DNA of 64,000 nucleotides from contig NZ_CP123897.1 in NCBI RefSeq assembly GCF_029910655.1, positions 2,531,547 through 2,595,546 on the forward strand, given 5' to 3'. Within the stretch, counting starts at the first letter, position 1. Each line of letters begins with the position of its first letter. This DNA is from Methylomonas sp. UP202. GTDB lineage: Bacteria; Pseudomonadota; Gammaproteobacteria; Methylococcales; Methylomonadaceae. Below the pieces are notes generated by a model, which was given only the letters and a program-made list of their open reading frames with translations, was not told the origin of the DNA and did no database searches. This document shows positions 1,174-18,142 of this stretch, one piece after another. A program made the translations under genes and the position numbers.

Positions 1174-2562
1174 ATGGGATTGCCAAACCAATCACTGCCA
1201 ACAAGGAATATCCAGCTGGACTTTTTTAGGGGCTTGGCGTTGCTGGTGATATTCATCAACCACATGCCCGATAACCCATGGTTTTGGTATACCCCATCTC
1301 GCTTTAGCCTCTGCGACGCCGCCGATGTGTTTGTATTCCTATCAGGTTTTGCTTCCGCGTTGGCTTATGGCCGCTGCTTCGAACGCGCTGGACTTTGGCT
1401 AGGGTCGATTCGCATCTTGCACCGTTGCGCACAGATTTATAGCGCGCATCTCGCGTCATTCGTTTTGCTGGCCTTGATTTGCGTGATTGGTAATCGTTGG
1501 GTGCCTGAAATGAATGACATTCAACGTCTGAATATCGTCTATTTTTTCGAGTCGACCGAACAAGCACTCTACGACTTGTTTACCTTGGCCTATGTGCCTA
1601 ACTATTTCGACATTCTGCCCATGTATCTGGTGATGATGGCGTGGCTGCCAATATTTTGGGCTTTATCGCGCTTGCACGTCGTCGTGGCCTTGGGTTGCTC
1701 GCTGGGATTGTATTGGGCAAGCTGGCAATATGGCTGGGAACTGACCGCCAACCCATCGACCGGCCGCCCCTGGTACTTCAATCCCATGAATTGGCAATTG
1801 ATGTTTTTCACCGGCTTTGCTTTCGGTGCCGGCTGGCTAAGCGTCGGCGTCAGGCATCGGTGGTTGGCGAGTTTGTGCCTTTCGTTGGTATTGCTGTCCA
1901 TTCCGTTGGGACATGAAGCCACCTACACTAAAGTCTTATTCTGGGGAGAACTGCGCGCAAAATTAGAGCCGTGGCTAAACAAAAGCCACCTCGGCTTATT
2001 GCGTTGGGTGCACTTACTCGCGCTGGCTTACCTGATGCACCGACTATGCAACTGGCGTCCGCAATGGCTGTCGACTGCATTACCTCTTGCCATCGCTACG
2101 ATGGGGCAACAATCCTTACCCATTTTTCTAACCTCGATGGTGTTGTCTTACGCCGGCGGCATCGTTCTGGACCAGTTCGGTCGAGAAACACCTATGGCCG
2201 TAGCATTGGTCAACTTGGGCGGTATGGCGTTGTTGCTCCTAATCGGGCAAGTGATGGCTTGGCTGGATACCAAGCCCTGGAAGTACTTAACGTCCGAGGG
2301 TCTGCCGCAACGCGAATTTCACGGTGACTCGGGGCCGTTCGAGGGGCGTTATCGCTGGGGCGGCCAAGTATTGGCGCTGCCTTTCCTGATTGGTCTGGCG
2401 GTACTTCCGGCATTATTGATAAATCGACAACACCTTGGGCCAGTCGGTTCTGATCTGGTCGCTCAGACAACGATTCCTAAGGACCAGTCAATACAACCCG
2501 TCGAAGTCCTCGTGCCAGAAACTGAGGCCGATAAGCTGATCGATAGTCGGCAGAAGCTTTAA
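1174..2562 (+). CDS. opgC: OpgC-like membrane acyltransferase
   Basis: A 462-residue integral membrane protein with about ten hydrophobic segments. The N-terminus carries the signature of the OpgC family: LDFFRGLALLVIFINHMP at about 15-32, then DAADVFVFLSGFASALAYGR. OpgC proteins succinylate osmoregulated periplasmic glucans at the inner membrane. The start at 1174 has an AGGGGC ribosome-binding site about 6 bases upstream. The C-terminal 60 residues are hydrophilic and variable. It stands just before a decayed antiporter and the sucrose genes, which fits a role in osmotic adaptation. The acyl group and the target glucan are inferred from the family only. No opgGH genes are visible in this window. 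Confidence 0.8.
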   Translation: MGLPNQSLPTRNIQLDFFRGLALLVIFINHMPDNPWFWYTPSRFSLCDAADVFVFLSGFASALAYGRCFERAGLWLGSIRILHRCAQIYSAHLASFVLLALICVIGNRWVPEMNDIQRLNIVYFFESTEQALYDLFTLAYVPNYFDILPMYLVMMAWLPIFWALSRLHVVVALGCSLGLYWASWQYGWELTANPSTGRPWYFNPMNWQLMFFTGFAFGAGWLSVGVRHRWLASLCLSLVLLSIPLGHEATYTKVLFWGELRAKLEPWLNKSHLGLLRWVHLLALAYLMHRLCNWRPQWLSTALPLAIATMGQQSLPIFLTSMVLSYAGGIVLDQFGRETPMAVALVNLGGMALLLLIGQVMAWLDTKPWKYLTSEGLPQREFHGDSGPFEGRYRWGGQVLALPFLIGLAVLPALLINRQHLGPVGSDLVAQTTIPKDQSIQPVEVLVPETEADKLIDSRQKL

Positions 2563-2576
2563 CGGTCTATCGACTC

Positions 2577-3041
2577 ATGGAAGCCCACACTGTCCATCAA
2601 TTTTTCCTTCAGTTGATGATTATTTTGCTGACCACTCGACTGTTGGGCGAATTGGTTACACGCCTACAAAGTCCGGCTGTAGTGGGTGAGTGACTGGCTG
2701 GGGTGATCCTAGGTCCTAGTTTATTGGCATGGCTGGAGTCGAGTCAGGTCGTCAAGTTACTGGCCGAGAGCGGCAGCATTTTACGGTCGTTCTAAGTGGG
2801 CTTGGATACCGACATCCGCCAACTGTCTGTTCGAGATCGCGATTTTCGGAAAACTTATTGATGCGTGATTTCCGAGTAGCGATGGGTCGGTGCATTTGGC
2901 GATAGCAATTATCATGATTCCGCGCGGAGAATTGGGGAGGAACTGGGGGATAATGATATATGCGCCGCATTGGTCATTGCCATAGCCATGACATTTCTGT
3001 CAGCTAACTTGTTGAAGAGTTATTACCGCTACATTAACTAA
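2577..3041 (+). pseudogene. decayed CPA2-type cation/proton antiporter
   Basis: Starting at the ATG at 2577 the translation shows the N-terminal CPA2 pattern: LGELVTRLQSPAVVGE, a TGA stop, then LAGVILGPSLLAWLE, LAESGSILRSF, a TAA stop, and VGLDTDIRQL. Further stops follow. In the next frame AIAIIMIPRGELG at about 2899-2937 matches the late-helix RGE motif, and back in the first frame CAALVIAIAMTF to the TAA at 3041 matches the last helix. About 155 codons remain of a module normally near 380 residues, so several stops, at least two frame changes and a large internal deletion are present. It lies 14 bases after opgC and was probably once its operon partner. It is not a close copy of the intact antiporter at 10576-11739. 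Confidence 0.8.
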
Positions 3042-3114
3042 GCCCATTGCTCTATTTAGGTAAGCATTAGTCTTGGGCGACGCGATAGACGCATGCCGTT
3101 CATGGAGCAAAACC

Positions 3115-5253
3115 ATGCAGGAATATGAAAAATCCGAATCCTTGTACATCGTCTTGATCAGCATACACGGCTTGATCCGCGGTCACGATCTGGAACTGGG
3201 GCGCGACGCCGATACCGGCGGACAGACCAAATACGTCGTGGAACTGGCCAAGGCGTTGGCAAAACAGCCGAATGTCGAGCAGGTGGATTTGGTGACGCGG
3301 CGGATCGTCGACGTTGAAGTCGGCGGCGATTACGCCGAATCCGTAGAGGCTTTGGCGGAAAACGCGCAAATCGTTCGTATCGATGCCGGCCCGGAAGGCT
3401 ACATCCGCAAGGAAGAGCTCTGGGATCACCTCGACAGCTTTGCCGATAATCTGTTGAGTTGGCTACATGGACAACCGCGCTGGCCGAATGTGTTGCACAG
3501 CCATTATGCCGACGCCGGCTATGTTGGCGTGCGGCTTTCGCATCTGACGGGGTTGCCGTTGATTCACACCGGCCATTCCTTGGGACGCGACAAGTGCCGC
3601 AGGTTGCTAGCGCGGGGTCTGACAATGGAGGAGATCGAGCAGCGTTACCACATTTCGCGGCGCATCAATGCCGAAGAGGAGACGCTGAGCAATGCCGATT
3701 TGATCATCACCAGTACCGGTAACGAAATCGAAGACCAATACGAACTTTACGATTGCTACACGCCGGAAAAGATGGCCGTCATACCGCCCGGTACTGATCT
3801 CGACCAATTTCACCCGCCCGCCGCCAGTAATGCTAGCTCCGCGTTTGCAGCGTCGCTCAAGAATTTCCTGTCTCAACAGGATATGCCGATGATATTGGCG
3901 TTGTCGCGACCGGACGAACGGAAAAATATCGTCACCTTATTGGAAGCCTACGGCGAATCGCCGCGTTTGCAAGCTAAAGCCAATCTGGTGATCGTCGCCG
4001 GCAACCGCGACGACATTCGGGAGATGGACGACGGAGCGCAGGGCGTGTTGACCGAATTGTTGCTGGTCGCGGATTGTTATGACCTGTACGGTCGGGTTGC
4101 CCTACCCAAGCACCACAAGGCGGACGACGTCGCGGACATTTATCGTCTGGCGGCGGTGTCCAAGGGGGTGTTTATTAATCCCGCTTTGACCGAACCCTTC
4201 GGTTTGACGCTGTTGGAAGCGGCAGCCAGCGGTCTGCCGCTGGTGGCCACTGAAAACGGCGGCCCGGTCGACATCATAGGCAACTGCCAAAACGGCGTGT
4301 TGGTGGACCCGCTGGATAAATCCGCGATCGCCGAGGCCTTGCTAAGCATACTCGACAATGACGAGTACTGGCGGACTTTATCGGCTAACGGCCTGGCGAA
4401 CGTCGTCCGTCATTACTCGTGGGAAGCGCATGCCCAAGCCTATCTCCAAAAAGTGCCGCCGTTGTTGCAGCATTTCGAACGTCTGCCAAAGACACCGCTG
4501 GTCGCCACAACCGGCCGGCTGCGGTCGCAGGCTATTTTTACCGCGCTGGATAATACGTTACTGGGGGACGACGAGGGACTGGCGCAATTCGTCAGCCTGA
4601 TTCGCAAAAAGCGAAAAAAATGCCTGTTCGGCATTGCTACCGGACGACGGCTGGATTCAGTTTTAGCCATTTTTAAGAAACATCGTATTCCAGTACCGGA
4701 TATTCTGATTACCAGCCTCGGTACCGAAGTCTATTTCACGCCGCAACTGATCGCGGACATAGCCTGGAGCTACCATATCGACCATCTGTGGACGCCCCAG
4801 GTCTTACGCCGGGTACTAGGCACGCTACCCGGCTTGACGCCGCAACCCAAGCGAGAACAGAGCCGCTTCAAGATTTCCTATTATTACGATAGCGAGCTTG
4901 CGCCGCCGATGGAAGAGATTCTGACTTTGTTGCGCCAACAGGAACTGTCGGTGAATCCCACGCTGTCGTTCGGGCAATTCTTGGACATCGTGCCGGCTCG
5001 CGCTTCCAAGGGACAGGCATTGCGTTATGTCGCGCGGCAATGGGATATTCCCCTGGAGCGCATCCTGGCGACGGGCGGTTCCGGCGGCGATTCCGATATG
5101 GTGGCGGGCAATACGCTGGGGGTCGTGGTGGCCAACCGCCACCGCGAGGAATTGTCGAATTTATCGGACATGGAACAGGTCTATTTCGCCGAACACTCCA
5201 ACGCCTGGGGCATACTGGAAGCCATCGAACATTACGATTTTTTCCATCTTTAG
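3115..5253 (+). CDS. sps: sucrose-phosphate synthase with C-terminal HAD-like domain
   Basis: Makes sucrose 6-phosphate from UDP-glucose and fructose 6-phosphate in the cytoplasm. The 712-residue protein has an N-terminal GT-B domain with ISIHGLIRG and LGRDADTGGQTKYVVEL near the start, HTGHSLGRDK in the middle and the donor-site stretch ALTEPFGLTLLEAAASGLP. A C-terminal HAD domain of the sucrose-phosphatase type runs from about residue 470. In that domain the first catalytic Asp is replaced (TALDNTLL, Ala477 where Asp is expected), so it is probably not a working phosphatase. The ATG at 3115 is preferred over an upstream TTG at 3073 because GGAG lies 8 bases before it. The phosphatase gene follows after 15 bases. 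Confidence 0.93.
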   Translation: MQEYEKSESLYIVLISIHGLIRGHDLELGRDADTGGQTKYVVELAKALAKQPNVEQVDLVTRRIVDVEVGGDYAESVEALAENAQIVRIDAGPEGYIRKEELWDHLDSFADNLLSWLHGQPRWPNVLHSHYADAGYVGVRLSHLTGLPLIHTGHSLGRDKCRRLLARGLTMEEIEQRYHISRRINAEEETLSNADLIITSTGNEIEDQYELYDCYTPEKMAVIPPGTDLDQFHPPAASNASSAFAASLKNFLSQQDMPMILALSRPDERKNIVTLLEAYGESPRLQAKANLVIVAGNRDDIREMDDGAQGVLTELLLVADCYDLYGRVALPKHHKADDVADIYRLAAVSKGVFINPALTEPFGLTLLEAAASGLPLVATENGGPVDIIGNCQNGVLVDPLDKSAIAEALLSILDNDEYWRTLSANGLANVVRHYSWEAHAQAYLQKVPPLLQHFERLPKTPLVATTGRLRSQAIFTALDNTLLGDDEGLAQFVSLIRKKRKKCLFGIATGRRLDSVLAIFKKHRIPVPDILITSLGTEVYFTPQLIADIAWSYHIDHLWTPQVLRRVLGTLPGLTPQPKREQSRFKISYYYDSELAPPMEEILTLLRQQELSVNPTLSFGQFLDIVPARASKGQALRYVARQWDIPLERILATGGSGGDSDMVAGNTLGVVVANRHREELSNLSDMEQVYFAEHSNAWGILEAIEHYDFFHL

Positions 5254-5268
5254 CGGAGCGCCAGCGCC

Positions 5269-6120
5269 ATGATGAATCGTCTTCTGATTTGTACCGATTT
5301 GGATCGCACCTTGTTACCCAATGGCAGTCAAACGGAGTCGCCAGGCGCGAGAGCGGCTTTCGCGCGTTTGGTTTCCCGCCCCGAAGTGACTTTGGCCTAT
5401 GTGAGCGGCCGGCACCGCGAATTGGTGGAAGACGCGATCCGTGAGTACGGTCTGCCATTAGCCGATTGGGTGATTGGCGACGTCGGCACCACGATCTATA
5501 AAACCAGCCCCGGAGAATGGGAAACTTGGGTCGCTTGGGAAGAGGATATCGCCGGCGACTGGCGCGGTCTGACGGCGAAGGATCTTCGACCTTTGTTTGA
5601 CGATTTGCCGAATTTGCGCTTGCAGGAAGAGGCGAAGCAAAACCGTTTCAAGCTCAGCTACTATCTGGCCACGCTCGGCGATATAGAAGCCTTGCGCCAG
5701 GAAATGGCGAACCGACTGCACGCACGAAATCTGGCGGCCAGCCTGATTTACAGCGTGGACGAAGCCGCAGCCGCCGGATTGCTGGATGTGTTGCCCGCCC
5801 ATGCCACGAAACTACATGCCGTGGAGTTTTTGATGCAGCACCAGAATTTCGATGTCGGCAATACGGTATTTGCCGGCGATAGCGGCAACGATCTGCCCGT
5901 GCTAATCAGTGGCATTAATGCGATTCTGGTTGCCAACGCGCATGGCGATGTCGTCGCGCAATCCACGGCGCTCGCCGAGCAAAATGGAACCGGTGCCAGG
6001 TTGTATTTGGCTAAGGGAAATTTTTTAGGCATGAACGGCAACTACAGTGCGGGAATTCTTGAGGGCGTTTCGCACTTTTTCCCTTGCACGCGGGGTTGGA
6101 TGGAACAAGCTAATGAGTAA
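5269..6120 (+). CDS. spp: sucrose-phosphate phosphatase
   Basis: A 283-residue HAD-superfamily phosphatase (S6PP type) that removes phosphate from sucrose 6-phosphate to give sucrose. The N-terminal motif LICTDLDRTLLPNG keeps both catalytic aspartates, and FAGDSGNDLPVL near residue 205 is the late Mg2+-binding motif. It starts 15 bases after the synthase stop, with GGAG in the gap, so the two form an operon. Its 3' end overlaps the ATG of the following GGDEF gene by 8 bases, which implies co-transcription with it. This enzyme supplies the phosphatase activity that the altered HAD domain of the synthase appears to lack. Confidence 0.93.
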   Translation: MMNRLLICTDLDRTLLPNGSQTESPGARAAFARLVSRPEVTLAYVSGRHRELVEDAIREYGLPLADWVIGDVGTTIYKTSPGEWETWVAWEEDIAGDWRGLTAKDLRPLFDDLPNLRLQEEAKQNRFKLSYYLATLGDIEALRQEMANRLHARNLAASLIYSVDEAAAAGLLDVLPAHATKLHAVEFLMQHQNFDVGNTVFAGDSGNDLPVLISGINAILVANAHGDVVAQSTALAEQNGTGARLYLAKGNFLGMNGNYSAGILEGVSHFFPCTRGWMEQANE

Positions 6121-6961
6121 TTGGCGCTTTATCCAAAACGACAACAAAACCCCCATTATTTGGTTAATTATTAGTTTTTTAATCAATATTGGTATCGGTA
6201 TTATTGATTTTAAACTAGGCAGGGAATTCAGTTTCTCAATATTCTACTTAATACCCATCGTATTGGTGACCTTGGCATTTGGTAGGCAGGTGGGTTTAGT
6301 ATTCTGTGTCTTTGCTACCGGAACCTGGTTTACTGTCGATCAACTGAACAACGCTTCATACTCGCATCCGATGATTGGCTACTGGAACGCCATCATGCGT
6401 TTTGGTTTCTTTGTAATGATCACCTGGCTTTTACCTGTATTACAAGAGCTGGAGCGCGAAAAACAAATTTCTCGCATGGACTATTTGACCGGCATTGTCA
6501 ACCGTCGCTATTTTTTCGAGTTACTGCAAGCCGAGCTTAATCGTTCTTGACGCTATAAACATGTATTCACGATTGCGTATATCGACCTCGATGGATTTAA
6601 ATGGGTAAACGATCAATATGGGCACTTGATTGGTGACAGGCTTCTATGTGCTTTCGTAAGTCGGGCAAAAAACATGTTGCGTAATACCGATATCATGGCA
6701 CGATTGGGCGGTGATGAATTTATATTGTTGTTGCCCGAAATGGGGCAAGATGCTGCAAAGTTTACCGTTGAAAAAATTCAGGCCGGATTATTGAACGAGA
6801 TGCGTAAAAATAAATGGCCAGTCACTTTTTCCATCGGTGTATTAAGCTACCAAAGCGGCGAAATTTCGGCCGATGAGTTAGTAAAACGCGCGGATAAATT
6901 AATGTATACAGTAAAAAACAATAGCAAGAACGCAATCGCATATGGGCTTTTTGACCAATAG
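6113..6961 (+). pseudogene. membrane GGDEF diguanylate cyclase gene interrupted by one in-frame TGA
   Basis: From the ATG at 6113 one frame encodes about four transmembrane helices, then MDYLTGIVNRRYFFELLQAE, and meets TGA at 6548-6550 (codon 146). The same frame continues without any shift as RYKHVFTIAYIDLDGF, the product-inhibition site RNTD, and an intact LGGDEF, ending at 6961. Without the stop it would be a normal 282-residue membrane diguanylate cyclase. A CGA arginine codon changed to TGA would explain it, since Arg is common at this position. The gene overlaps the sucrose phosphatase by 8 bases and is visibly more AT-rich than its neighbours, which suggests it was acquired. It may be a recent nonsense mutation, a sequencing error or a read-through gene. 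Confidence 0.85.
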
Positions 6962-7037: not shown

Positions 7038-8993
7038 ATGTATGAACAAGTCTCCCATTCACTATTGAACGCCATTCTGGATGATCTGAAACCGGAGATT
7101 CGTCGCCAGGATCTTCGGCACTTTTACACCCGGCTGGGCGCCAATTTTTATGCGATTTATTCGCTATTTTTCACGCTGTACGGTCAGCGGGAGGATTTTA
7201 AACCGCAAATACTGCGGCTGGTGGAAACCATGGCCAAGGGCTATATCGATCGGTCCGCCGAGTTGGAGCGCATCGACATGGAGCGCGAACAGGATCACAA
7301 CTGGTTTCTGTCGCAGAAATGGGTCGGCATGGCCTTGTATACCAACGGCTTCGCGGAAAATCTGGCCGATCTGGTAAGCAAGACGCCTTATTTCCAGGAA
7401 CTCGGCATCAATTTGGTGCATATCATGCCGATTCTGATGTGTCCCGCGGGCAAGAGTGACGGTGGCTATGCGGTCAGTGATTTTAGACAGATCGACGACA
7501 GGCTGGGCGATCTGAATGATCTGCGGCGAGTGGCCAAGGAGTTCAAAAAACGCGAAATCCTGCTGGTACTGGACATCGTGATGAATCATACCTCCGACGA
7601 ACACGAATGGGCCAGAAAGGCGACTATGGGCGAACGTCGGTATCAGGATTATTACTTCGTCTTCGATAACCGGGAAATTCCCGATATGTTCGAGCAGACC
7701 ATGCCGCAAGTTTTCCCGGAGTCGGCACCGGGCAACTTCACCTGGAATGAGAACATGCAAAAATGGGTGATGACAGTCTTCAACGATTACCAATGGGATT
7801 TGAATTACAGTAACCCCGAGGTGTTCATCGAAATGTTGGATATTATCTTGTTCTGGGCTAACCAGGGAGTTGATATCTTACGCCTGGATGCCGTCGCTTT
7901 TCTGTGGAAAAAAATCGGCTCCACCTGCCAGAATGAACGCAACGCCCATCTGATATTGCAATTGATGAAGGATTGCTGTCAGGTCACCGCGCCGGGTGTG
8001 TTGTTCATCGCCGAAGCCATCGTCACGCCGCTCGAAGTCATCAAATATTTTGGCGAGGATGCAATCATCGCCAAGGAATGCGAAATTGCTTACAACGCTA
8101 CTTTGATGGCCTTGCTATGGGATGCTATAGCCACTCAAAATGCCAAACTGCTCTGTCAAGGGATAAAAAACTTGCCGGCGAAACTGGAGCGCGCCACTTG
8201 GTTGAATTATGTGCGCTGCCACGACGATATCGGCTTTGGCTTCGACGACAACGATATTCGCGCCGCAGGATACGACCCTCACGCACATCGGCAATTTCTA
8301 GTCGATTATTTCAGCGGTCAATTCGAAGGATCTCCGGCCAGAGGCATGGTGTTCATGCGTAACGAAACCACGGGCGACGCCCGTATCAGCGGTTCGCTGG
8401 CTTCCCTGGCGGGGCTGGAAGCGGGCCGGGAAAACAATGACCAGGGCTTGATCGATTCCGCAATCCAAAAGATTCTGTTATTGCAGAGCCTGATATTGTC
8501 CTTCGGCGGTATTCCATTGCTATACAACGGTGACGCGCTCGGCGTCATCAACGATTACAGTTACCGCGACGACCCCGGTAAAAGCGACGACAACCGCTGG
8601 ATACATCGACCCAAGATTAATTGGGACAGGGCCGAATTGCGCAAAAAACAAGGCACCACCGAATTTGTCCTGTTCAATGCAATGAAGAAAATGATCGCGA
8701 TCCGTAAGGAAATCTCCGCGTTCGCCGACTTCAACAACCGGGAACTGGTCGACGTCGATAACGCGCATTTATTGTGTTTCATTCGTTTCGATCACCTGCG
8801 TCCTTCCGAGCGGGTGATAGTCGTCGCCAATTTCGATGCCAATCCGCAATACCTGGATCTTTACTTGCTCAAAAGCAAGGGCATCAATCCCTACGGGCAA
8901 TTTGTCGATGTTTACAGCGGCGGCAAGCCGGAGCAATACGACAGACGGGTCGTGTTGCAGGGTTTTCAGTTCTATTGGTTGTCGGAAATATAA
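7038..8993 (+). CDS. ams: amylosucrase (GH13)
   Basis: A 651-residue GH13 enzyme that splits sucrose and passes the glucosyl unit to alpha-1,4-glucan, releasing fructose. The helical N-terminal domain typical of amylosucrases precedes the barrel, which begins near LSQKWVGMALYTNGFAENLA. The catalytic residues are visible: nucleophile Asp284 in ILRLDAVAF, acid/base Glu326 in FIAEAIV, and Asp396 in CHDDIGF. The region I motif is LDIVMNHTSDEHEWA. With the synthase and phosphatase upstream it completes a sucrose cycle that can lead carbon into glycogen. The ribosome-binding site before 7038 is weak. In described methanotroph clusters a fructokinase gene usually accompanies this set, and none is seen here. 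Confidence 0.93.
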   Translation: MYEQVSHSLLNAILDDLKPEIRRQDLRHFYTRLGANFYAIYSLFFTLYGQREDFKPQILRLVETMAKGYIDRSAELERIDMEREQDHNWFLSQKWVGMALYTNGFAENLADLVSKTPYFQELGINLVHIMPILMCPAGKSDGGYAVSDFRQIDDRLGDLNDLRRVAKEFKKREILLVLDIVMNHTSDEHEWARKATMGERRYQDYYFVFDNREIPDMFEQTMPQVFPESAPGNFTWNENMQKWVMTVFNDYQWDLNYSNPEVFIEMLDIILFWANQGVDILRLDAVAFLWKKIGSTCQNERNAHLILQLMKDCCQVTAPGVLFIAEAIVTPLEVIKYFGEDAIIAKECEIAYNATLMALLWDAIATQNAKLLCQGIKNLPAKLERATWLNYVRCHDDIGFGFDDNDIRAAGYDPHAHRQFLVDYFSGQFEGSPARGMVFMRNETTGDARISGSLASLAGLEAGRENNDQGLIDSAIQKILLLQSLILSFGGIPLLYNGDALGVINDYSYRDDPGKSDDNRWIHRPKINWDRAELRKKQGTTEFVLFNAMKKMIAIRKEISAFADFNNRELVDVDNAHLLCFIRFDHLRPSERVIVVANFDANPQYLDLYLLKSKGINPYGQFVDVYSGGKPEQYDRRVVLQGFQFYWLSEI

Positions 8994-9190
8994 GGTGCTA
9001 GTTAAGTCGGCTTCGAATATTTCACCACCATATCGAGTATATTGACCGAGCAGGCTGAAGGCGTTCTTCACAATACTGTCGACGATAGACCTGTTGTCGA
9101 CGCTTTACCGATTGTTCGACGATGGAAAATCCTAAGCTTGTTTTGTCCTGCAACCCCTGTACCGAGACCACGTTATTTAAAGTGATATTT

Positions 9191-10513
9191 ATGAAACCGA
9201 AACCTGTTAATCACCCAAGCGTACTGAGATTGTCCGCGTTACTCTGGACAATCGTGATGGGTTCTCCTTCATGCTACGCAGCTTCGGATTTTCTTAAAGT
9301 GGATGGAGCGGATATCAAAGACAACTATGGATTGGGTCGAAAGGTTCATTTATACGGCACTAATCTGGGCGGTTGGAGGGGGCATGAACCTTGGATGTCC
9401 CCGTTAGCTGGGGCATCAAATGAATGGGATGCGCGAAGTGTTTTAACCGAGCGTTTTGGCAAGGATGCCGTGTGGGAACTTTACAATTCTTACTGGGATA
9501 CTTGGATCACGGAACAGGATTTCAAGAACATCGCAGAAGCCGGTCTCAACTGTATCCGTTTGCCGGTATATGCGTTTAACCATATGGATGATGAGGGCAA
9601 TTGGAGGCGGGACGATACAGGCGCCATTGATTTATCCAGAATCGAGTGGACCGTCAACAAAGCTCGGGAATATGGGCTCTACACCGTTCTTGATCTTCAC
9701 GGAGCGCCAGGATCGCAGAACGGAGCCCATCACTCAGGCCGGCAAAACGGCGCTTTGCTGTATTCTACCCCGCTCTATCAGAATCAACTGGTTGAGCTTT
9801 GGGAAACGCTCGCCACGCGCTTTAAGGATAATGCCGCCGTGGCGGGGTATGACCTACTGAATGAACCTTCCGAGACGTTTCCCGGCCGGATGGGATCTGG
9901 GGTGGTTAGCCTTTACAACCGTCTGTATCATGCCATCCGAGCGATTGATCCAGACCATATCATTATTATGGAAGCTATTTGGTGGTGGAACACGCTGCCC
10001 AATCCCCAAGAGAAAAACTGGGAGAACGTCGTCTATTCCTTGCATTATTACCAATGGCAAAACAATAACGATTTCACGGTGATGAAAAACGCTGTGGATG
10101 GGTGGATACAAGACGCGCGGAAATGGGGCACCGAATATAAAGTGCCGCATTTTATTGGAGAATTCACACTATTCGAAAATGCCGAATCATGGGATTACGG
10201 ACTTCAGCAATTTACAGAAACCGGCAGCCATTGGACCACTTGGTCTTATAAGGTAGTAGGTCGTAATAACTGGGGCATGTACAACACAACTGAACAAAAT
10301 GGCAATGTTGCCAATATTGCCACGGATGATTTCAACACGATCAAACACAAATGGAGTCAGTGGAACACGCCGGAATATTTTTCACCCAACCCGACAGTCA
10401 TCAACGCCATGAAAAAAGCTACCTTAGGCAGAAACCTGAAGCGGCCCACGCAAACTGTCACCGCTAAATCAGAGAATCAGGCGGAACAAGACATTGTTGG
10501 CATGGCTAATTAA
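9191..10513 (+). CDS. secreted GH5 glucanase (exo-beta-1,3-glucanase-like)
   Basis: A 440-residue glycoside hydrolase family 5 protein. The chosen ATG gives a clear signal peptide: a basic start, then a hydrophobic run through LSALLWTIVMG and a probable cleavage after CYAA. Starting at 9122 would put 23 odd residues before it. The GH5 pattern is plain: LYGTNLGGW, GLNCIRLPVYAF, VLDLHGAPGSQNG, acid/base Glu225 in YDLLNEPSE and nucleophile Glu324 in FIGEFTLF. The overall form resembles the eukaryotic-type glucan 1,3-beta-glucosidase branch. It should act outside the inner membrane on beta-glucans. It faces the antiporter gene at 10576 convergently. The substrate is inferred. Confidence 0.85.
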   Translation: MKPKPVNHPSVLRLSALLWTIVMGSPSCYAASDFLKVDGADIKDNYGLGRKVHLYGTNLGGWRGHEPWMSPLAGASNEWDARSVLTERFGKDAVWELYNSYWDTWITEQDFKNIAEAGLNCIRLPVYAFNHMDDEGNWRRDDTGAIDLSRIEWTVNKAREYGLYTVLDLHGAPGSQNGAHHSGRQNGALLYSTPLYQNQLVELWETLATRFKDNAAVAGYDLLNEPSETFPGRMGSGVVSLYNRLYHAIRAIDPDHIIIMEAIWWWNTLPNPQEKNWENVVYSLHYYQWQNNNDFTVMKNAVDGWIQDARKWGTEYKVPHFIGEFTLFENAESWDYGLQQFTETGSHWTTWSYKVVGRNNWGMYNTTEQNGNVANIATDDFNTIKHKWSQWNTPEYFSPNPTVINAMKKATLGRNLKRPTQTVTAKSENQAEQDIVGMAN

Positions 10514-10575: not shown

Positions 10576-11739
10576 TTACGAATGCTGTCTTATTCTTTCG
10601 GCCAGTAGAGGAAACAGCAAAACGGAAATCATCCCGGCACTGACCAGAACTGCTGCTCGATCCGGGGCCATCAGGCCGGACGAGACCCCGATTTCGGAGA
10701 TAATGACGATCATGGGCAGGCCTGTCGCGGAATAGAGTGCAAAAGGCAATCTGTCGTTTGACGCTAAAACTGGGTAGTAAAGGATTACCGGCACGCCACG
10801 AATTAGAATCAACAAACCCAATAGGCAGATGATCTGGACTGGAACCAGCGGATTCGCCCACAGTGCGCTAACGTCAAATTTCATGCCGGCGACGATAAAG
10901 AAAATGGGGATTAGGAAACCATAACCGATGGCATCCAGTTTCTGCCGAAGAATCATGCCGCCTTCGCCTTTGCTGGCAAGGCCCACCACCATGCCGGCCG
11001 CGAATGCGCCGACCACCACATTCAACCCAAACTCGCCGGCTAAAACCACCAGTAGGGCCTGGAGCGCAATGCAGATTCTCACCGGCAGTTGGCCACTACT
11101 TTGCATGGTTTGGGCCAGGAGATCGATTAAAGTGGAGGAACGGGCGTTGATCGCCGTATCCGCTATCACAAAAGTAATCCCCACAAAGGCCAAGATGAAA
11201 ACGGTATGCAAAAAGGTACTATGGGTCGGGATGATCAGCATGGAGACCACCATCAGCGGGCCGAATTCACCCATTGCCGCCGCCGACAGCAGCATTTTGC
11301 CGAAGTCCGTATTCAGAATGCCTTCATCTCGCAGAATCGGGGCCAATACGCCGAGTGCGGTGGTCGATAAGGCTACCGCTGCTAAAAGCGGCGGTGCCTG
11401 AATCAGGCCGATGGCATGCACGACGGACATGCAAGCCATGGCCACCGTAAACGAAAGAAACCACCCGCCAATGGCCAGCGTCAAGGGTTTGCCTTGAATT
11501 TCGCCGAGATTGATTTCCATGCCCACCATGAACAGCAAAAACGTCAAGCCCAGCTCACCTAGCATACCGACTAAACCGTCTGGTGATACCCAGTTGAAAA
11601 TATGAGGGCCGATTATCATGCCAAGAAGCATTTCCGTCGCCACAACTGGCATGCGGAAGCGTGTTGGAATTCTGGCGAGCAAGGGAGAGAAAGCCGCCGC
11701 CAAGGCGATGACAAATAATGCGATACGGTAAGATTCCAT
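10576..11739 (-). CDS. CPA2-family cation/proton antiporter
   Basis: A 387-residue membrane protein of the monovalent cation:proton antiporter-2 (KefB/NapA-like) type with about 11-12 hydrophobic segments. Family motifs include MPVVATEMLLGMIIGPHIF, FLLFMVGMEINLGEI, and LSTTALGVLAPILRDEGIL on the fourth to fifth helices. It has no RCK/TrkA_N domain, so it is the short form. The ATG at 11739 has AGGAG 8-9 bases upstream. It follows the ClC gene on the same strand after 55 bases, so the two are probably one operon that links cation/proton exchange to chloride movement. Whether the ion is Na+ or K+ cannot be read from the sequence. Confidence 0.88.
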   Translation of the reverse strand: MESYRIALFVIALAAAFSPLLARIPTRFRMPVVATEMLLGMIIGPHIFNWVSPDGLVGMLGELGLTFLLFMVGMEINLGEIQGKPLTLAIGGWFLSFTVAMACMSVVHAIGLIQAPPLLAAVALSTTALGVLAPILRDEGILNTDFGKMLLSAAAMGEFGPLMVVSMLIIPTHSTFLHTVFILAFVGITFVIADTAINARSSTLIDLLAQTMQSSGQLPVRICIALQALLVVLAGEFGLNVVVGAFAAGMVVGLASKGEGGMILRQKLDAIGYGFLIPIFFIVAGMKFDVSALWANPLVPVQIICLLGLLILIRGVPVILYYPVLASNDRLPFALYSATGLPMIVIISEIGVSSGLMAPDRAAVLVSAGMISVLLFPLLAERIRQHS

Positions 11740-11794: not shown

Positions 11795-13177
11795 TTACTG
11801 AATTCGTTTTTGTCGCAATTCGTTTTCCAGCAAGGCTTCATAAACGGGAGGACATCCTAACCAATTCACGATGAGCAAAGCGGTAAAACAGGCGATGAAT
11901 AGCGGCAAAATCAATGCGTAATCACTGGTCATCTCGATGATTAACACGATGCCCGTTAAAGGCGCTTGTACCACTCCGCTAAAATATGCAGCCATCCCGA
12001 TAACGGCAAATAGCCTAGGATCTGCATTTAATTCGGGAAAAAACAATTGTGTGGTCGCACCGACACCCCAACCCAGCAATGCGCCCAAAACCAAGATCGG
12101 CATAAAAATCCCCCCGGCCGCGCCCGAGCAGGAACTACCGATAGTCAACACGAATCGGCTGACAAAGAATAGCGCTATCGTTCCCAGTGTGAGTTCCCGG
12201 CCTACGAGAATTTCATTCACGAAATCATAGCCGCCGCCCAATAATTCGGGCGCATACCAAGCTGTGGCTGTCAGCCAGGTTGCCAAAGTCAGCCACCACA
12301 TCGTTTTCGGCCAAACACTCAGGGTAATCAATCGTTGTCCCCGCAACAAGGCATGCGTGAACAAACTACCCAATAGGGCGGATAGTAAACCCAAAGGAAC
12401 GAATGCAATAAGAAGACTCAGCGGCGGAGCGGTGAAATTAACGAAATGAAAGGCGGGTTGTTGGCCGAGCGCCACGCGGCACACCATATCCGCTGTCAGA
12501 CAGGCCATGGCGGCGGTCACGAATTCGAGCGAAGAGCATCGCCGTTCAAGTTCTTCCAATACAAAGGTCAAGCCGGAGAGAGGGGCGTTGAATGCCGCCG
12601 TGAGTCCGGCGCCGCCGCCGGCAGCAATCAATATCGTATGCTCGGGGTTACCGTTTTTAGGCCAGATATTGGCTAGCCCTTGCCCTATGGAACTTCCCAT
12701 ATGTACACAGGGACCGGCGCGACCAACGACAAGGCCGCCAATGCCGCCAATGACCATGCTGATAAACTTGGTAATCAGCACCCGAAACCAGCGGAAATGC
12801 CGGTGCCCAATCAATACGCCCTTAATGTGGGGAATGCCGCTGCCGCTTGCCTCGGGTGCAAATTGTCTGACGATTCCGGCGGAGATGATCAGGGTGATTA
12901 ACGCTAATCCCAGAATCATTCCAACGCCGAAGTCGGGGTTCTGATGTGATAAGTCTAAAAACTTTTTTCGAAATGCTTCTGCGCTATTCATTGCTAAATG
13001 GAATGCTACCGAAGTTGCGCCGGTCGTCAATCCGAGCACAAGCGCTTGGGGTATCAAATGGTTCCGCTGCCGATTAAATTCTACCTTTGAAGCGGATTGG
13101 TGTTCTGATGGATCACGTTGCAACAAATTTCCCCCGGAGGCAGGTGATTGGCCTTCACAATCGACGATTACAGCCAA
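11795..13177 (-). CDS. ClC-family chloride transport protein without the gating glutamate
   Basis: A 460-residue ClC protein. The chloride-site motifs are present: GSGIP at 112-116, VGRAGP at 151-156, GIFMP in the later part, and a tyrosine in PPVYEALL near the C-terminus. The internal glutamate pair (LEELERR) that serves proton transfer is kept. The external gating glutamate of the usual GREGP motif is alanine here (Ala154, codon GCC at 12716-12718 on the minus strand), which in studied antiporters uncouples chloride from proton movement. There are no C-terminal CBS domains. The start is uncertain: a TTG at 13177 gives the longest frame, while TTG codons at 13126 and 13123 sit just after a GGGGGA ribosome-binding site. 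Confidence 0.88.
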   Translation of the reverse strand: MAVIVDCEGQSPASGGNLLQRDPSEHQSASKVEFNRQRNHLIPQALVLGLTTGATSVAFHLAMNSAEAFRKKFLDLSHQNPDFGVGMILGLALITLIISAGIVRQFAPEASGSGIPHIKGVLIGHRHFRWFRVLITKFISMVIGGIGGLVVGRAGPCVHMGSSIGQGLANIWPKNGNPEHTILIAAGGGAGLTAAFNAPLSGLTFVLEELERRCSSLEFVTAAMACLTADMVCRVALGQQPAFHFVNFTAPPLSLLIAFVPLGLLSALLGSLFTHALLRGQRLITLSVWPKTMWWLTLATWLTATAWYAPELLGGGYDFVNEILVGRELTLGTIALFFVSRFVLTIGSSCSGAAGGIFMPILVLGALLGWGVGATTQLFFPELNADPRLFAVIGMAAYFSGVVQAPLTGIVLIIEMTSDYALILPLFIACFTALLIVNWLGCPPVYEALLENELRQKRIQ

Positions 13178-13355: not shown

Positions 13356-13380
13356 ATGTTGAAGCAAACAATGTTTGTAG
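13356..13380. promoter_or_regulatory. operator-like palindrome upstream of the ClC gene
   Basis: The half ATGTTGAAGCAAACA at 13356-13370 matches the left arm of the palindrome before marR (15877-15891) at 14 of 15 bases. With TGTTTG at 13372-13377 it forms a perfect 6-bp inverted repeat around a central A. It lies about 180 bases before the likely ClC start. A MarR-type repressor site is the simplest reading. Binding is inferred, not shown. Confidence 0.55.
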
Positions 13381-13428
13381 AAACGCATTGTTGCAAAGAG
13401 GGGCAGGTTCTAACGGGTTGATTTCTCG

Positions 13429-13526: not shown

Positions 13527-13826
13527 CTATTTGGGAGTATTGGGATGTCGACCCAAGCGACCTTGGTTGTAATAATAAATGTCTGAGCAAGACACTCTAT
13601 TCGGATCCGTTTGGAAATCGTGTCCGCGGATACTTCTGGTTGAATTTTCAGAGCTTACAATGTATGAGCGGGACTTAAGGCACTGTATAACCGCTTGCCT
13701 TGTACTTTCAGCAAACCGCTTCGATTGGCTCGATTGAGCGCCTGGCTCCGGATTGTGTTGCTCGCAACCGAAGATACATAGCAAACTGACAATAAATATC
13801 ACAGATGTGCAACGCGTGAAGCTCAT
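13527..13826 (-). CDS. possible small lipoprotein, unknown function
   Basis: An open frame of 99 residues starting MSFTRCTSVIFIVSLLCIFG with Cys at residue 21, which looks like a lipoprotein signal peptide with a lipobox (CIFGC). The rest is hydrophilic and has two further cysteines. I do not recognise a family. A GGGG run lies about 6 bases before the ATG. A plus-strand frame of 79 codons overlaps it, so the coding status is uncertain. It lies between the ClC promoter region and the glycosyltransferase gene. Confidence 0.4.
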   Translation of the reverse strand: MSFTRCTSVIFIVSLLCIFGCEQHNPEPGAQSSQSKRFAESTRQAVIQCLKSRSYIVSSENSTRSIRGHDFQTDPNRVSCSDIYYYNQGRLGRHPNTPK

Positions 13827-13915: not shown

Positions 13916-15406
13916 TTACGCTTCGATACTTTCCGACGCCTCATGCGTTAACAACTCCATTAAGTCGCTGAATTCACTGATAAGCGTGATGCCCGGTTCC
14001 TCAAGCAGTTTAGGCGACTTAGGATCGATGACGAAGGCGTTATCTGCTAGCCGCAACATTTCCAAATCATTAAGGTTATCGCCGACAGCCCAAATCAGTT
14101 CGATCGGAGGTTGTGATTTATCTGTCAAGAAGCATCGCATCGCGTTGCTTTTACAAATCGGGGTAACTGAATTGACGTCGTCGGGCGAGAAAGCCGGATT
14201 GATTTGTAACTGGCCGTTGCAGACCTCCCCATCGAAAGTCAGGGTATGAGCCAGCGCGAAATCAGCAAATATGCGACGTCTTATAATATCGGCAGCAACA
14301 AAATAGCTGTCGCTGACGACACCGACCATGAAACCGGCTCGTCTTGCCTGCTTGACGAATTCGATGACGCCTGGACGGATTTCCAGCGTACGAGCCACCT
14401 GTTCGAATTGCTGCTTGTGAATGAAGCGAAACAACTCGGCAATCCGCTCGCTGCGGGTTATAGCATCGTCGTGAGGCGTATCCAGTAGTTGCACCAAAGC
14501 CGCTTCGTTTCCGGTGTTGCGCGCCAGTTCCAGCGCAAATCGCGATGGGGTTACCGTGCCGTCCATGTCCAGCAAAAGTAAGCATCGGCGTCCCCTGCGA
14601 AGAGACAGCACATAATCGATACCGGCAGCCACTTGGCGTTGGTTCTCGTACATGGCAGTGACCTGTTCCACATGCAGGCGTCCAGCTTTTTTGGCGCGGT
14701 CGAAAATGGCGCGGCTGACCTCGTTGGCCATCAGCGATAAATCTTGCAGCGGCTGGCTATCATGTTCCAACAAGCCAATGTCAACTTCCGCCAGCTTGGC
14801 GCCGGCCAAATGAGCGTCAAGCAACAGACCGGCATCGACACCATAATCATCTTCGAATCTAATGGTTTGCAACAGGCGTTTGCGTGCGGCAATGATTCCG
14901 CCCAACGGCTGAGCCAGATGCGACAGTTCGGGGAAGAACACTTTCAGCATCGGTTTGGCGGTGAGTTCGGTAACCCGGCCGCCACCGCGTCCGAAGCGGG
15001 CTTTGACGAAGTCCGCCCCCTCGTTAAGCAGCGGCAAGCAAAGGCTGGTGACGATGCCGGGACGTAAATTGGTCAGATCGCCGTCCAGATAAACGACCAA
15101 ATCATGAGTAGCCGCCGCCGCGCCGTCGCGCATCGAAACGCCTTTGCCCAACATGCTACTGGTCATGACCTTGGCACCGGCATCTCTCGCCAGCATCGCT
15201 GTATCGTCGATGGAGCTATCGTCGACGACAATCACTTCGGCGGTAGCCGAATCTGCCAAGGCGTAAGCAACCACTTCCTGGATGCGTTTGGCTTCGTTCA
15301 AAGCCGGTATCACGACGGTCGCACAGGCGTTCGAATCGCGTTGTTGATGAGTCCGTCTGTTTTTCTTTCTCTTGACGAATACCCAGTGTCGATATTTCGA
15401 TTTCAT
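13916..15406 (-). CDS. GT2 glycosyltransferase fused to a HAD phosphatase (glucosylglycerate-type synthase/phosphatase candidate)
   Basis: A 496-residue two-domain protein. Residues about 28-255 form a family 2 glycosyltransferase: TVVIPALNEAKRI, VVDDSSIDDT, GKGVSMRDG and the DXD-type VYLDGD at 105-110, closely resembling glucosyl-3-phosphoglycerate synthases (QPLGGIIAARK and DYGVDAGLLLDAHL are typical). Residues about 275-480 form a HAD phosphatase with LLLDMDGTVT (Asp280, Asp282), VVSDSYF and WAVGDNLNDLEML, near phosphoserine phosphatase in form. The fusion would make a phosphorylated glycoside and dephosphorylate it in one polypeptide, as in bifunctional mannosyl-phosphoglycerate enzymes. 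AGGA lies 7-8 bases before the ATG at 15406. The product is inferred; its place among sucrose and ion genes supports a compatible solute. Confidence 0.75.
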   Translation of the reverse strand: MKSKYRHWVFVKRKKNRRTHQQRDSNACATVVIPALNEAKRIQEVVAYALADSATAEVIVVDDSSIDDTAMLARDAGAKVMTSSMLGKGVSMRDGAAAATHDLVVYLDGDLTNLRPGIVTSLCLPLLNEGADFVKARFGRGGGRVTELTAKPMLKVFFPELSHLAQPLGGIIAARKRLLQTIRFEDDYGVDAGLLLDAHLAGAKLAEVDIGLLEHDSQPLQDLSLMANEVSRAIFDRAKKAGRLHVEQVTAMYENQRQVAAGIDYVLSLRRGRRCLLLLDMDGTVTPSRFALELARNTGNEAALVQLLDTPHDDAITRSERIAELFRFIHKQQFEQVARTLEIRPGVIEFVKQARRAGFMVGVVSDSYFVAADIIRRRIFADFALAHTLTFDGEVCNGQLQINPAFSPDDVNSVTPICKSNAMRCFLTDKSQPPIELIWAVGDNLNDLEMLRLADNAFVIDPKSPKLLEEPGITLISEFSDLMELLTHEASESIEA

Positions 15407-15763
15407 GCGCTATTCCTAGTCATTTGCAGTCCCGAAGTCGGTCCCACAGTTTCAAGTGGGCCCAATTCTGCGAGTTTCGGCTGCTAAGGTGACATCCCGG
15501 ATAGTTGGAATGTTTGTCGGCTTACGCCGTTGTCGACGAAGATTGATCGATAGGGACTGGGGTGTTTTGACCGCAACACGATGCCAGCAATATGACAGAG
15601 GAGAGCCAAACCAGGCAAATCAACAATCTAACGTAAATATTTGAAAACATTTTAATTTCGTCATTTTGGCGCTTTGTTTGGGTATCGCTGTTGGACAGAG
15701 AGCGTCTAGCGGTCGTGAAAGCGTCTTTGGTAATTCCGTTACTTGTAAGCAGTATGCGTCGGA

Positions 15764-15853: not shown

Positions 15854-15876
15854 GAGAGCATTATAATGACCCAATA

Positions 15877-15907
15877 ATGTTGACGCAAACATTGTTTGTG
15901 TCAACAT
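15877..15907. promoter_or_regulatory. 31-bp near-perfect palindrome, probable MarR operator
   Basis: Two 15-base arms (15877-15891 and 15893-15907) are reverse complements at 14 of 15 positions around a central T at 15892. The left arm is ATGTTGACGCAAACA. Such long AT-rich palindromes upstream of marR genes are common autoregulatory sites. It lies about 120 bases before the promoter at 16030 and 190 bases before the marR ATG, so it could serve another promoter or looping as well. Partial copies occur upstream of the ClC gene. Confidence 0.65.
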
Positions 15908-15959
15908 ATATATCGAGACGCCGATCTGCCAGATCTTCCGCATACTGTACGGAGCCAGC

Positions 15960-16067
15960 GGAAAAATTCTGAGTTCGTTATGCCCGAATCAAGCGGGCCA
16001 CATTGGCTGTCAGGTGGGTAATAATGTTTTTGACACCTTAATTTTGCCGACTATAAACCGTAACCCC
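15960..16067 (+). other. marR leader region with an alternative GTG start
   Basis: The marR frame is open upstream to a GTG at 16014. A strong promoter at 16030-16057 lies inside that extension, so use of the GTG would need another, upstream transcript. The ATG at 16068 is therefore favoured. Confidence 0.4.
16030..16057 (+). promoter_or_regulatory. sigma-70 type promoter for marR
   Basis: TTGACA at 16030-16035 and TATAAA at 16052-16057 are separated by 16 bases. Transcription would begin near 16063-16065, only a few bases before the ATG at 16068, giving a nearly leaderless message. Confidence 0.6.
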
Positions 16068-16604
16068 ATGAACAAATCAGCACTGCCAACCACCAACACC
16101 GACGGCTCCAAACAATGGCCACATGAAGTCTTGAAACAATTTCGAATGATTTTTAAGGCCGTTCAGCAACACTCCCAATGGGTAGAAACGCATTGCGGCG
16201 TTACCAGCGCTCAACTGTGGGCACTCTGGGAGTTATCAAAAAATCCGGGATTGAAAGTCACCGAACTAGCTAAAGCGATGTCGATCCATCATTCCACCGC
16301 CAGCAATATGCTCGACAAACTGGCCAAGAAGGGATTAATCATGCGGGAGCGCGTTAGTCAGGACCAACGGGTTGTTACCGTGATGTTGACTCAGGACGGT
16401 ATTGAACTGTTAAACCAAGTAAGCTCGCCGCCGCAGGGCATTTTGCAACATGCACTATTTGCCTTGCCGGAAAATGTTCTGAAGTCTCTGGCCAAGAATC
16501 TCGATGTGCTTGTTAAAGAAATGCAAATTAAGGACGACGAAGCCGCGATGCAGCCTATTAATCCGCTGCCTAAAAAATCGCCTTCAGCCAAAAATCAAGG
16601 GTGA
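16068..16604 (+). CDS. MarR-family transcriptional regulator
   Basis: A 178-residue winged-helix regulator. The core runs from HEVLKQFRMIFKAVQQHSQW through GVTSAQLWALWELSKNPGL, the recognition helix region AMSIHHSTASNMLDKLAKKG and the wing MRERVSQDQRVVTVMLT, all typical of MarR. Such proteins are dimers that bind palindromes and often respond to small ligands. The C-terminal 30 residues are a charged tail without a known domain. No ribosome-binding site precedes the ATG, consistent with a near-leaderless message from the promoter at 16030. It precedes nhaD by 95 bases on the same strand, and copies of its probable operator precede the ClC gene, so it may control ion transport genes. Confidence 0.85.
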   Translation: MNKSALPTTNTDGSKQWPHEVLKQFRMIFKAVQQHSQWVETHCGVTSAQLWALWELSKNPGLKVTELAKAMSIHHSTASNMLDKLAKKGLIMRERVSQDQRVVTVMLTQDGIELLNQVSSPPQGILQHALFALPENVLKSLAKNLDVLVKEMQIKDDEAAMQPINPLPKKSPSAKNQG

Positions 16605-16653
16605 ACGTTTAGGCCAACCCAAGCATGTTGCGGGTATGGACAATGAGAACGTA

Positions 16654-16672
16654 ATCGACTCAAAAAGTCGAT
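16654..16672 (+). other. small hairpin between marR and nhaD
   Basis: ATCGACT at 16654-16660 pairs perfectly with AGTCGAT at 16666-16672 around a CAAAA loop, 27 bases before the nhaD ATG. No T-run follows, so it is not a simple terminator. It may shield or stabilise the intercistronic message. Confidence 0.4.
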
Positions 16673-16699
16673 CGTTGAACGACAGAAATGGAAGAATGT

Positions 16700-18142
16700 A
16701 TGAACGAACTAAACAAGTTTTTGCTTGGCTTATTAGCAGCTGCCGGACTAATGTTATTTTCAACCAACGTGCTTGCTGAAACTTTTTCTCAAGCCCTGGA
16801 TTTGAGCGGACATTGGGTCGGATACCTCTGTGTAGGCCTGTTTGCGATCGCGTACCTCTTTGTGGTCCTTGAAGAAGTATTGGAATTACGAAAATCCAAG
16901 CCGATGATGTTGGCGGCGGCGCTGATATGGGTGGCGATTGCCCTGGTTTATAAGAACCAAGGCTTATCGTCGGTCGCCGAGACGGCGATTCGGCACGATG
17001 TTTTGGACTACGGCGAGTTATTACTATTCCTGATTGTTTCCATCGCTTACATCAATGCGATGGAAGAGAGACGCGTCTTCGACAGCCTGCGGGCTTGGTT
17101 GGTTAATCGGGGTTCGAGTTATCGTCAGTTGTTTTGGGTTACAGGGGGCTTGGCTTTTTTCATTTCCTCGGTGTCCAATAACATGACTACCGCGATGTTG
17201 ATGTGCGCGGTGGTCATGGCGGTAGGCAAGGACAACCCCAAATTCGTCGGCGTATCCTGTGTCAATACCGTGGTGGCTGCCAATGCAGGTGGGGCGTTTT
17301 GCCCGTTCGGCGACATCACCACCTTGATGGTCTGGCAAAAGGGCATCATCGAATTCTGGACCTTCTTCAAATTGTTTGTGCCCTCGGTGGTTAACTTCCT
17401 GATCCCCGCCGCGATCATGCATTTCGCGATTCCCAAAACCCAACCAGCGCCTATTCATGCCAAGGTCATGACTCGCCGTGGCGCTAAACGTATCGTAGTG
17501 TTATTTCTGCTCACCGTACTCACGGCGGTGACTTTCCAAAACAGCCTGCAACTGCCGGCGGCGGTCGGCATGATGGCCGGTCTGACTTATCTGCAATTGT
17601 TCGGCTATTTCCTGCACGTCACCCATCGCGACGAGCCGGAACTAGGGCTCGATCCAATGTCCGGCGAGGAAGTCAAGGGTAGCGCCGATGCAGATAGTTT
17701 GCGCTTTGACGTCTTTCATCATCTGGCGCGCATGGAATGGGATACCTTGCTGTTTTTCTATGGTGTCGTGCTGTGTGTGGGCGGTATGAACTTCCTCGGC
17801 TACCTACACCATTTGTCCGGTTTTCTCTATGGTGAACTGGGTGCTACCCCAGCCAACATACTGGTTGGCGTTATTTCCGCGCTGATCGACAATATCCCGG
17901 TTATGTTTGCCATTCTGGCCATGCATCCCGAAATGTCGGAAGGCCAATGGTTGTTGGTAACGCTGACCGCCGGTGTTGGTGGCAGTCTGCTCTCGGTTGG
18001 CTCTGCCGCGGGCGTGGCCTTGATGGGCCAAGCCAAGGGCGCGTACACATTCCTAACTCATCTGAAATGGGCGCCGGTGATTGCGCTAGGTTATTTTGGC
18101 GGTATCGGTGCGCACTTTTTAATGAATGCCGAGCTGTTTTGA
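16700..18142 (+). CDS. nhaD: NhaD-type Na+/H+ antiporter
   Basis: A 480-residue inner-membrane protein of the NhaD branch of the ion transporter superfamily, exchanging Na+ (or Li+) for H+. A cleavable signal-like N-terminus ends near NVLAETFS. Family motifs are visible: FISSVSNNMTTAMLMCAVV, NAGGAFCPFGDITTLMVWQ, and the mirrored half with ISALIDNIPVMFAILAMHPE and GVGGSLLSVGSAAGVALMG. The ATG at 16700 is chosen over 16688 because GGAAG lies 5 bases before it. It follows marR and a small hairpin, so co-regulation by that protein is likely. It fits sodium tolerance of the cell together with the neighbouring osmolyte genes. Confidence 0.92.
   Translation: MNELNKFLLGLLAAAGLMLFSTNVLAETFSQALDLSGHWVGYLCVGLFAIAYLFVVLEEVLELRKSKPMMLAAALIWVAIALVYKNQGLSSVAETAIRHDVLDYGELLLFLIVSIAYINAMEERRVFDSLRAWLVNRGSSYRQLFWVTGGLAFFISSVSNNMTTAMLMCAVVMAVGKDNPKFVGVSCVNTVVAANAGGAFCPFGDITTLMVWQKGIIEFWTFFKLFVPSVVNFLIPAAIMHFAIPKTQPAPIHAKVMTRRGAKRIVVLFLLTVLTAVTFQNSLQLPAAVGMMAGLTYLQLFGYFLHVTHRDEPELGLDPMSGEEVKGSADADSLRFDVFHHLARMEWDTLLFFYGVVLCVGGMNFLGYLHHLSGFLYGELGATPANILVGVISALIDNIPVMFAILAMHPEMSEGQWLLVTLTAGVGGSLLSVGSAAGVALMGQAKGAYTFLTHLKWAPVIALGYFGGIGAHFLMNAELF

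Follow-up and report, generated by a model that had tools for sequence, protein, structure and literature searches.

A window of 64,000 nt from Methylomonas sp. UP202 (G000:C1:2531547-2595546 of a 5.68-Mb genome) carries, at positions 1174–18142, a block of genes that is best explained as an accessory salt-adaptation island made of two modules: a sucrose module on the left and, on the right, a salt regulon that would be controlled by a MarR-family regulator through a pair of palindromes. The probability of this explanation as a whole is put at about one half. The new points are the candidate operator pair, a putative solute enzyme housed in one protein and likely of Burkholderiales origin, and a ClC protein without its gating glutamate. 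The original prediction, made from the letters of the window, had described the block as an osmotic and ionic adaptation region; profile and PDB matches recovered every gene that it named. It overlooked the palindrome pair, two small lipoprotein-like open reading frames (ORFs) and the missing gating glutamate of the ClC protein. In the titles and opening parts of abstracts of open-access literature, no description was found of the enzyme fusion, of this regulon or of glucosylglycerate in Methylomonas. The operator pair and gene set are testable, and may help to explain how methanotrophs in which no ectoine genes were detected cope with increasing salinity.

Within the right half, palindrome op1 (15878–15906) lies in the divergent region between GT81-HAD, a GT81 (GpgS-like) glycosyltransferase fused to a HAD-IB phosphatase (13916–15406, − strand; profile, phmmer and structure matches), and the genes for the MarR-family regulator (16068–16604, + strand; PF01047, E 5.3e-16) and, 83 nt further on, the sodium/proton antiporter NhaD (16688–18142, + strand; NF038006 593.7 bits, cut-off 80). 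NhaD falls below the cut-off of the older model TIGR00775 (426.7 vs 577.1). Palindrome op2 (13357–13385) stands before the ClC gene (11795–13177, − strand; NF003640 386.3 bits, cut-off 350), whose true start is probably downstream of 13177, and the gene of a CPA2 cation/proton antiporter follows after 55 nt (10576–11739, − strand; PF00999, nearest PDB match 5bz3 at E 1e-15). Both palindromes were recovered by repeat, pattern and matrix searches. At low salt MarR would repress all of these genes by binding op1, which would cover the divergent promoters of GT81-HAD and of MarR-NhaD (its own operon), and op2, which would cover the ClC-CPA2 promoter; a rise in salt would lift the repression. NhaD would then expel sodium, ClC would offer chloride a passive exit driven by the membrane potential, and another monovalent cation would be moved by CPA2, while GT81-HAD would join a hexose to 3-phosphoglycerate and remove the phosphate, yielding glucosylglycerate or a close relative as compatible solute.

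A repeat search picked up the palindromes: a stretch of 51 nt upstream of MarR recurs with 75 % identity upstream of ClC. An exact search of the genome for the core CAAACAnTGTTTG gave two hits, both in the block, and one for its reversed control; the 29-bp pattern with up to three mismatches also has just two genomic sites, both in the block, and the reversed control none. Over 37 Methylomonas genomes the exact core was found 34 times: 16 times in the eight genomes that carry the MarR (14 of these at the locus) and 18 times in the other 29. At the 14 exact locus sites, 9–14 of 14 positions are paired; the site before ClC takes a doubled form with one mismatch in G038 (9 positions paired) and in G107 (5 paired). 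Two of the 18 cores outside the carriers, in G011 and G079, immediately precede a ClC homologue and have all 14 positions paired; eight cores fetched from the remaining 18 off-locus occurrences have 6–10 of 14. The two sites before ClC homologues, which read GRGGP, are perfect 29-bp palindromes (L195:10816-10844 in G079; L197:10960-10988 in G011).

A site matrix built from 12 locus sites scored the pair in the window at 45.1 and 37.7, and any other stretch at 4.0 at best. Outside the training set it found matches before marR in a second genus (32.2 and 24.5 in G014, 31.6 in G082) and before ClC in G079 and G011 (34.2); further scores were 15.4 in L052 and 15.1 in L134. Candidate sites thus precede marR in two genera. 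Visual inspection of the alignment shows a TATAAT-like hexamer 17–18 nt beyond op1; beyond op2, at a distance of 18 nt, the window and L014 have TAAAAT or TAGAAT. The hits of a sigma-70 and terminator scan did not exceed chance, and the hexamers after op1 and op2 were not reported by the consensus scan. Identity across op1 is 0.865 and falls to 0.54 over the 100 columns to its left.

GT81-HAD matches GpgS (phmmer, 1.8e-31) and SerB-like phosphatases, and its predicted structure, with a mean predicted local distance difference test score of 86.9, resembles GpgS (Foldseek to 7pdo, 2.6e-19) and SerB (7.2e-13 at best). In the GT81 half the DxD-type aspartates D108 and D110 are invariant in 34 rows. 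The HAD half scores 50.7 bits with TIGR01488 (cut-off 45); D280 and D282 are likewise invariant, and S365, K419, D443 and D447 are kept in at least 90 % of the same rows. The Mycobacterium GpgS shares the GT81 fold and the conserved aspartates but works with a separate phosphatase, whereas here the transferase is fused to a SerB-like phosphatase of HAD-IB type and falls short of the GpgS equivalog cut-off. Dehalococcoides MgsD is a bifunctional mannosylglycerate synthase; the phosphatase of such enzymes belongs to HAD-IIB and so differs from the HAD-IB domain of the block fusion. Synthase and phosphatase work are combined in one protein in both cases, and an excerpt of PMC8490865 describes a bifunctional mannosylglycerate synthase expressed in Corynebacterium glutamicum. 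In L038, L042 and L043 (Zwartia and a related metagenome-assembled genome, MAG), the HAD motif DMDGT is replaced by DMDE or DMDEI; therefore, the phosphatase may be lost there.

Another reading concerns the nature of the solute only, and it is compatible with the regulon. The fusion might make mannosylglycerate, or the primer of an intracellular polysaccharide, instead of free glucosylglycerate. Mannosyl-3-phosphoglycerate synthase 3f1y is among the nearest structures (E 7.4e-28 vs 1.8e-31 for GpgS), and mycobacterial GpgS belongs to methylglucose lipopolysaccharide synthesis (PMC2581804, in excerpt). However, the fused phosphatase and the linkage to ion and solute transport would fit a free solute better, and another product is considered rather doubtful.

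A tree of 59 fusions places the five Methylomonas rows in one group (100/100) inside a group of 50 rows (100/100), the other members of which are betaproteobacterial except for one Silanimonas MAG. The nearest group to the Methylomonas fusions (98/98) is a pair of Burkholderiales MAGs, of which one has a long branch. Transfer of GT81-HAD into Methylomonas would be the simplest reading of this tree. MarR was not seen to be nested as the fusion is, so that the module may have been assembled and not moved whole. Among named organisms in the scan, Methylomonas koyamae R-45383 is the closest relative, with a fusion protein 98 % identical. Distant fusions of both domains occur in L050-L055 and L061, in MAGs labelled Schekmanbacteria, Zixibacteria, Ignavibacteriales, Magasanikbacteria, Peregrinibacteria, Uhrbacteria and Glassbacteria.

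In Burkholderiales the fusion often has MarR, ClC and a sodium:solute symporter as neighbours. Neighbours were counted by tblastn at 1e-8 for 47 of 76 fusion loci, those of betaproteobacterial type with the Silanimonas MAG included; the 29 left out comprise 3 Methylomonas loci, 13 of other lineages and 13 with short matches only. Within 3 kb of the fusion, MarR was found at 16 loci, ClC at 14, a sodium:solute symporter (PF00474) at 18 and any of the three at 31. At the 30 loci with full flanks, counts near the fusion (<3 kb) and far from it (3–9 kb, a zone twice as large) were 10:1 for MarR, 10:1 for ClC and 15:2 for the sodium:solute symporter. CPA2 and NhaD were found by tblastn near the fusion in none of the 47 loci. 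At the L013 locus, an ORF that clusters with CPA2 was located 145 nt downstream.

All eight ClC proteins of block carriers read GRAGP where CLC-ec1 reads GREGP; the gating glutamate is thus replaced by alanine, while the inner EE pair is kept. The protein is above the cut-off of the ClcA equivalog model NF003640, and PF00654 finds one ClC in the genome. Its second-best PDB match is 1ott, aligned with the same 'gragp' and taken here to be the E148A mutant. The E148A mutation of CLC-ec1 abolishes H+ transport but leaves Cl− transport in place (PMC3519907, in excerpt). Therefore, the block ClC, lacking the gating glutamate, should pass chloride without protons, and uncoupled chloride flux through it is predicted. 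The next relatives read GRGGP (G011, G079, G014 and G082), and G095 retains GREGP.

The ClC proteins beside the fusion in Burkholderiales are of a different type, 25–31 % identical to the block ClC. They retain GREGP, and 13 of 14 have EQ at the inner pair; Leeia retains both glutamates. The one searched against PDB, from L009, has as best match 2fec, the E203Q mutant, in which coupling is weak at about 75 Cl− per H+ (both from excerpts of PMC7253180). The block ClC would thus resemble E148A and the Burkholderiales ClC E203Q; unlike those mutants, both are natural proteins without the respective proton glutamate. Because E203Q is still weakly coupled, and because the inner residue of some antiporters departs from the pattern (PMC3519907, excerpt), the Burkholderiales half of this convergence is the weaker. 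A possible though tentative extension is that a naturally proton-uncoupled ClC and NhaD together expel sodium chloride, that Burkholderiales with the same solute enzyme arrived at near-uncoupling through loss of the other glutamate, and that uncoupled chloride exit is a repeated requirement of such a salt response. Natural counterparts of two classic CLC uncoupling mutants, apparently in a salt-response setting, would open the use of uncoupled chloride flux in bacteria to direct test.

The accessory nature of the block, as originally predicted, was borne out, and the genes in it suggest osmotic and ionic functions. MarR at ≥83 % identity was found in 8 of 37 Methylomonas genomes, and the same eight carry the block or its pieces in unchanged order. 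In G107 the block is split over two contigs on which sucrose-phosphate synthase (SPS) and amylosucrase are lacking and GT81-HAD is only a remnant. GT81-HAD is intact in 5 of the 37 genomes, decayed in G113 and not found in G038. Scattering of the genes among relatives, named beforehand as an outcome contrary to the original prediction, was seen in part: SPS is present in 15 of 37 genomes, inside the block in seven carriers and in eight genomes without MarR of this type. Around SPS, no block ClC or MarR was seen in 7 of these 8 MarR-less genomes, some contigs ending nearby. NhaD of this type (≥78 %) occurs in 14 of 37 genomes; since all 37 have some NhaD at E 1e-20, its presence as such says little. 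Outside the block, NhaD adjoins the acyltransferase gene OpgC in 4 of 5 loci fetched, with a CPA2 gene between them in two. OpgC and NhaD being neighbours elsewhere, the block sits between the two, and was presumably inserted there.

Beyond Methylomonas, a second genus of the family (G014 and G082) has a rearranged version with MarR at 71–75 %, ClC at 55 %, SPS, the phosphatase, amylosucrase and CPA2 at 67 %; G014 additionally has NhaD at 91 %, GH5 and a GT81-HAD remnant. GT81-HAD was found in 1 of 111 genomes of the family sample (E 1e-20). In a class-wide search one of 369 genomes gave a fusion match at E 1e-60, from which no rate is drawn because at most four candidates were scored per genome.

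MarR repressors of compatible-solute genes are known, among them EctR1 of Methylomicrobium alcaliphilum, which represses ectABC-ask in response to salinity, and CosR of Vibrio (PMC7876524, in excerpt). The block resembles these systems in having a MarR-family gene beside solute-synthesis genes, and differs in that its MarR would control a glycosylglycerate-type enzyme together with ion transporters. The block MarR is 28–35 % identical to MarRs beside ectA in the family, where 10 of 13 ectA loci fetched have MarR genes, and 35–42 % identical to Burkholderiales MarRs, a nearness by identity only which the unrooted tree does not settle. That tree separates Methylomonas, Burkholderiales and ect-linked rows into three groups; in a midpoint drawing the ten ect-linked rows form one side of a branch (100/100). 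ectA is present in 12 of 111 sampled family genomes and was not found in any of seven sampled Methylomonas genomes, UP202 included. An identity of the block MarR with EctR was rejected, given that no ectA match was found in the genome and that the ect-linked rows form a separate group in the tree.

Several observations weigh against a MarR-controlled salt regulon. The core with two mismatches is not significant in the window (5 vs 2.78 expected; 13 of 100 shuffles as high). The conservation of op1 is not decisive by itself, since the flank on its right reaches 0.785 and 15 of 616 equally long windows are as conserved as op1. A shared operator was sought in the Burkholderiales loci, and no similar site turned up. 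G011 and G079 have the perfect site before ClC and no match to the block MarR at E 1e-15, so that another protein may bind there. For the MarR homologues at 60–65 % (G132 and G138), which stand in other settings, 400 nt of upstream sequence showed no palindrome of this kind. Of the eight carriers, three have GT81-HAD only as a remnant, in decayed form or not at all, and the enzyme does not reach the cut-off for the GpgS equivalog (NF010496; 191.4 vs 262). The homologues in G132 and G138 (L134:9910-10443 and L135:9739-10272) adjoin what read, from their ORFs, as polysaccharide-export-like and LysM-type genes and not a salt block.

Many MarR proteins respond to small ligands, and pH balance is among the tasks of sodium/proton antiporters and ClC proteins. 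The local MarR could thus read the palindromes in response to pH, an organic acid or a phenolic, with the transporters serving pH or anion balance; the two homologues in other gene settings favour such a signal. This seems unlikely, since an enzyme of compatible-solute type shares the putative operator and, in Burkholderiales, a sodium:solute symporter joins the cluster. The perfect palindromes of G011 and G079 raise the possibility that a regulator encoded elsewhere binds the sites, MarR being a mere neighbour or target. This is also judged improbable: the genome has just two sites, one of them before marR itself, and the marR-linked sites of the second genus were found by a matrix not trained on that genus. 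A loose gathering of accessory genes at one place without joint function, suggested by the mixed orientations, two broken genes, SPS in genomes without this MarR, the decaying fusion and the rearranged order in the second genus, is very unlikely in view of the order conserved in eight genomes, the palindrome pair and the fact that MarR, ClC and GT81-HAD are again found side by side in Burkholderiales.

The left module would make and break down sucrose. It comprises SPS fused to a sucrose-phosphatase domain (about 3115–5253, + strand; TIGR02472 676.5 bits, cut-off 576; TIGR02471 298.2, cut-off 209.75), a second sucrose-phosphatase-like HAD protein (5269–6120, + strand; PF05116, E 6.2e-47) and amylosucrase (7038–8993, + strand), which is similar over its full length to solved amylosucrases (best PDB match 3ucq, residues 27–649, E 1.7e-156). 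Methanotrophs reportedly have a sucrose gene cluster of sps, spp and ams. The synthase with phosphatase domain and the amylosucrase are alike here; in contrast, the block has an extra phosphatase-like gene and, as in G115 and G118, a GGDEF gene in between. Genes for sucrose synthesis and breakdown also occur without the block elsewhere in the genus. The left module shows no shared control: in the matrix scan of the window no palindrome was found before OpgC, the sucrose genes or GH5 (best other stretch 4.0). Of the common control initially suggested for the entire block, the part concerning GT81-HAD, MarR-NhaD and ClC-CPA2 thus gains support from the palindrome pair and the part concerning the left half does not. 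In G122, which has no block, a weaker matrix match (19.1) lies close before the SPS gene (L122:11873-11901).

The left border is formed by an OpgC-like acyltransferase (1174–2562, + strand; PF10129, E 4.9e-92). The two broken genes noted earlier were both verified. The first is a relic of a second CPA2 antiporter gene between OpgC and SPS (2515–3176, + strand), which matches the CPA2 region of L124 by blastn at 70–73 % in two pieces with internal stops; L111, L124 and L126 have a CPA2 gene there. The second is the GGDEF gene (6047–6961, + strand; PF00990 in its second part), interrupted by one in-frame stop at 6548–6550 that is missing from the G115 and G118 copies. The remaining gene of the left half encodes a GH5 glycosidase (9122–10513, + strand; PF00150), with exo-1,3-beta-glucanases among its PDB matches. 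The AT-richness perceived by eye was measurable: the block has 51.1 % GC vs 56.7 % in the rest of the window, and only one of 48 sliding 17-kb windows, namely the block itself, is as low. The sole tRNA of the window lies at 60.8 kb, which gives no support to a mobile island bordered by a tRNA. No integrase was seen by eye among the listed ORFs of the window, a family search for integrases not having been made, and no Rfam family was above its threshold in positions 1–30000.

Two small lipoprotein-like ORFs flank GT81-HAD, neither with a Pfam match. One of 42 amino acids lies between op1 and GT81-HAD (15522–15650, − strand) and has a homologous ORF in all seven loci compared; the other, of 99 amino acids, follows GT81-HAD (13527–13826, − strand) and has one in all six loci read. 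Both are retained in G038, where GT81-HAD was not found. In NCIMB 11130 an additional ORF of about 240 amino acids is located between op2 and ClC (L003:7280-8258).

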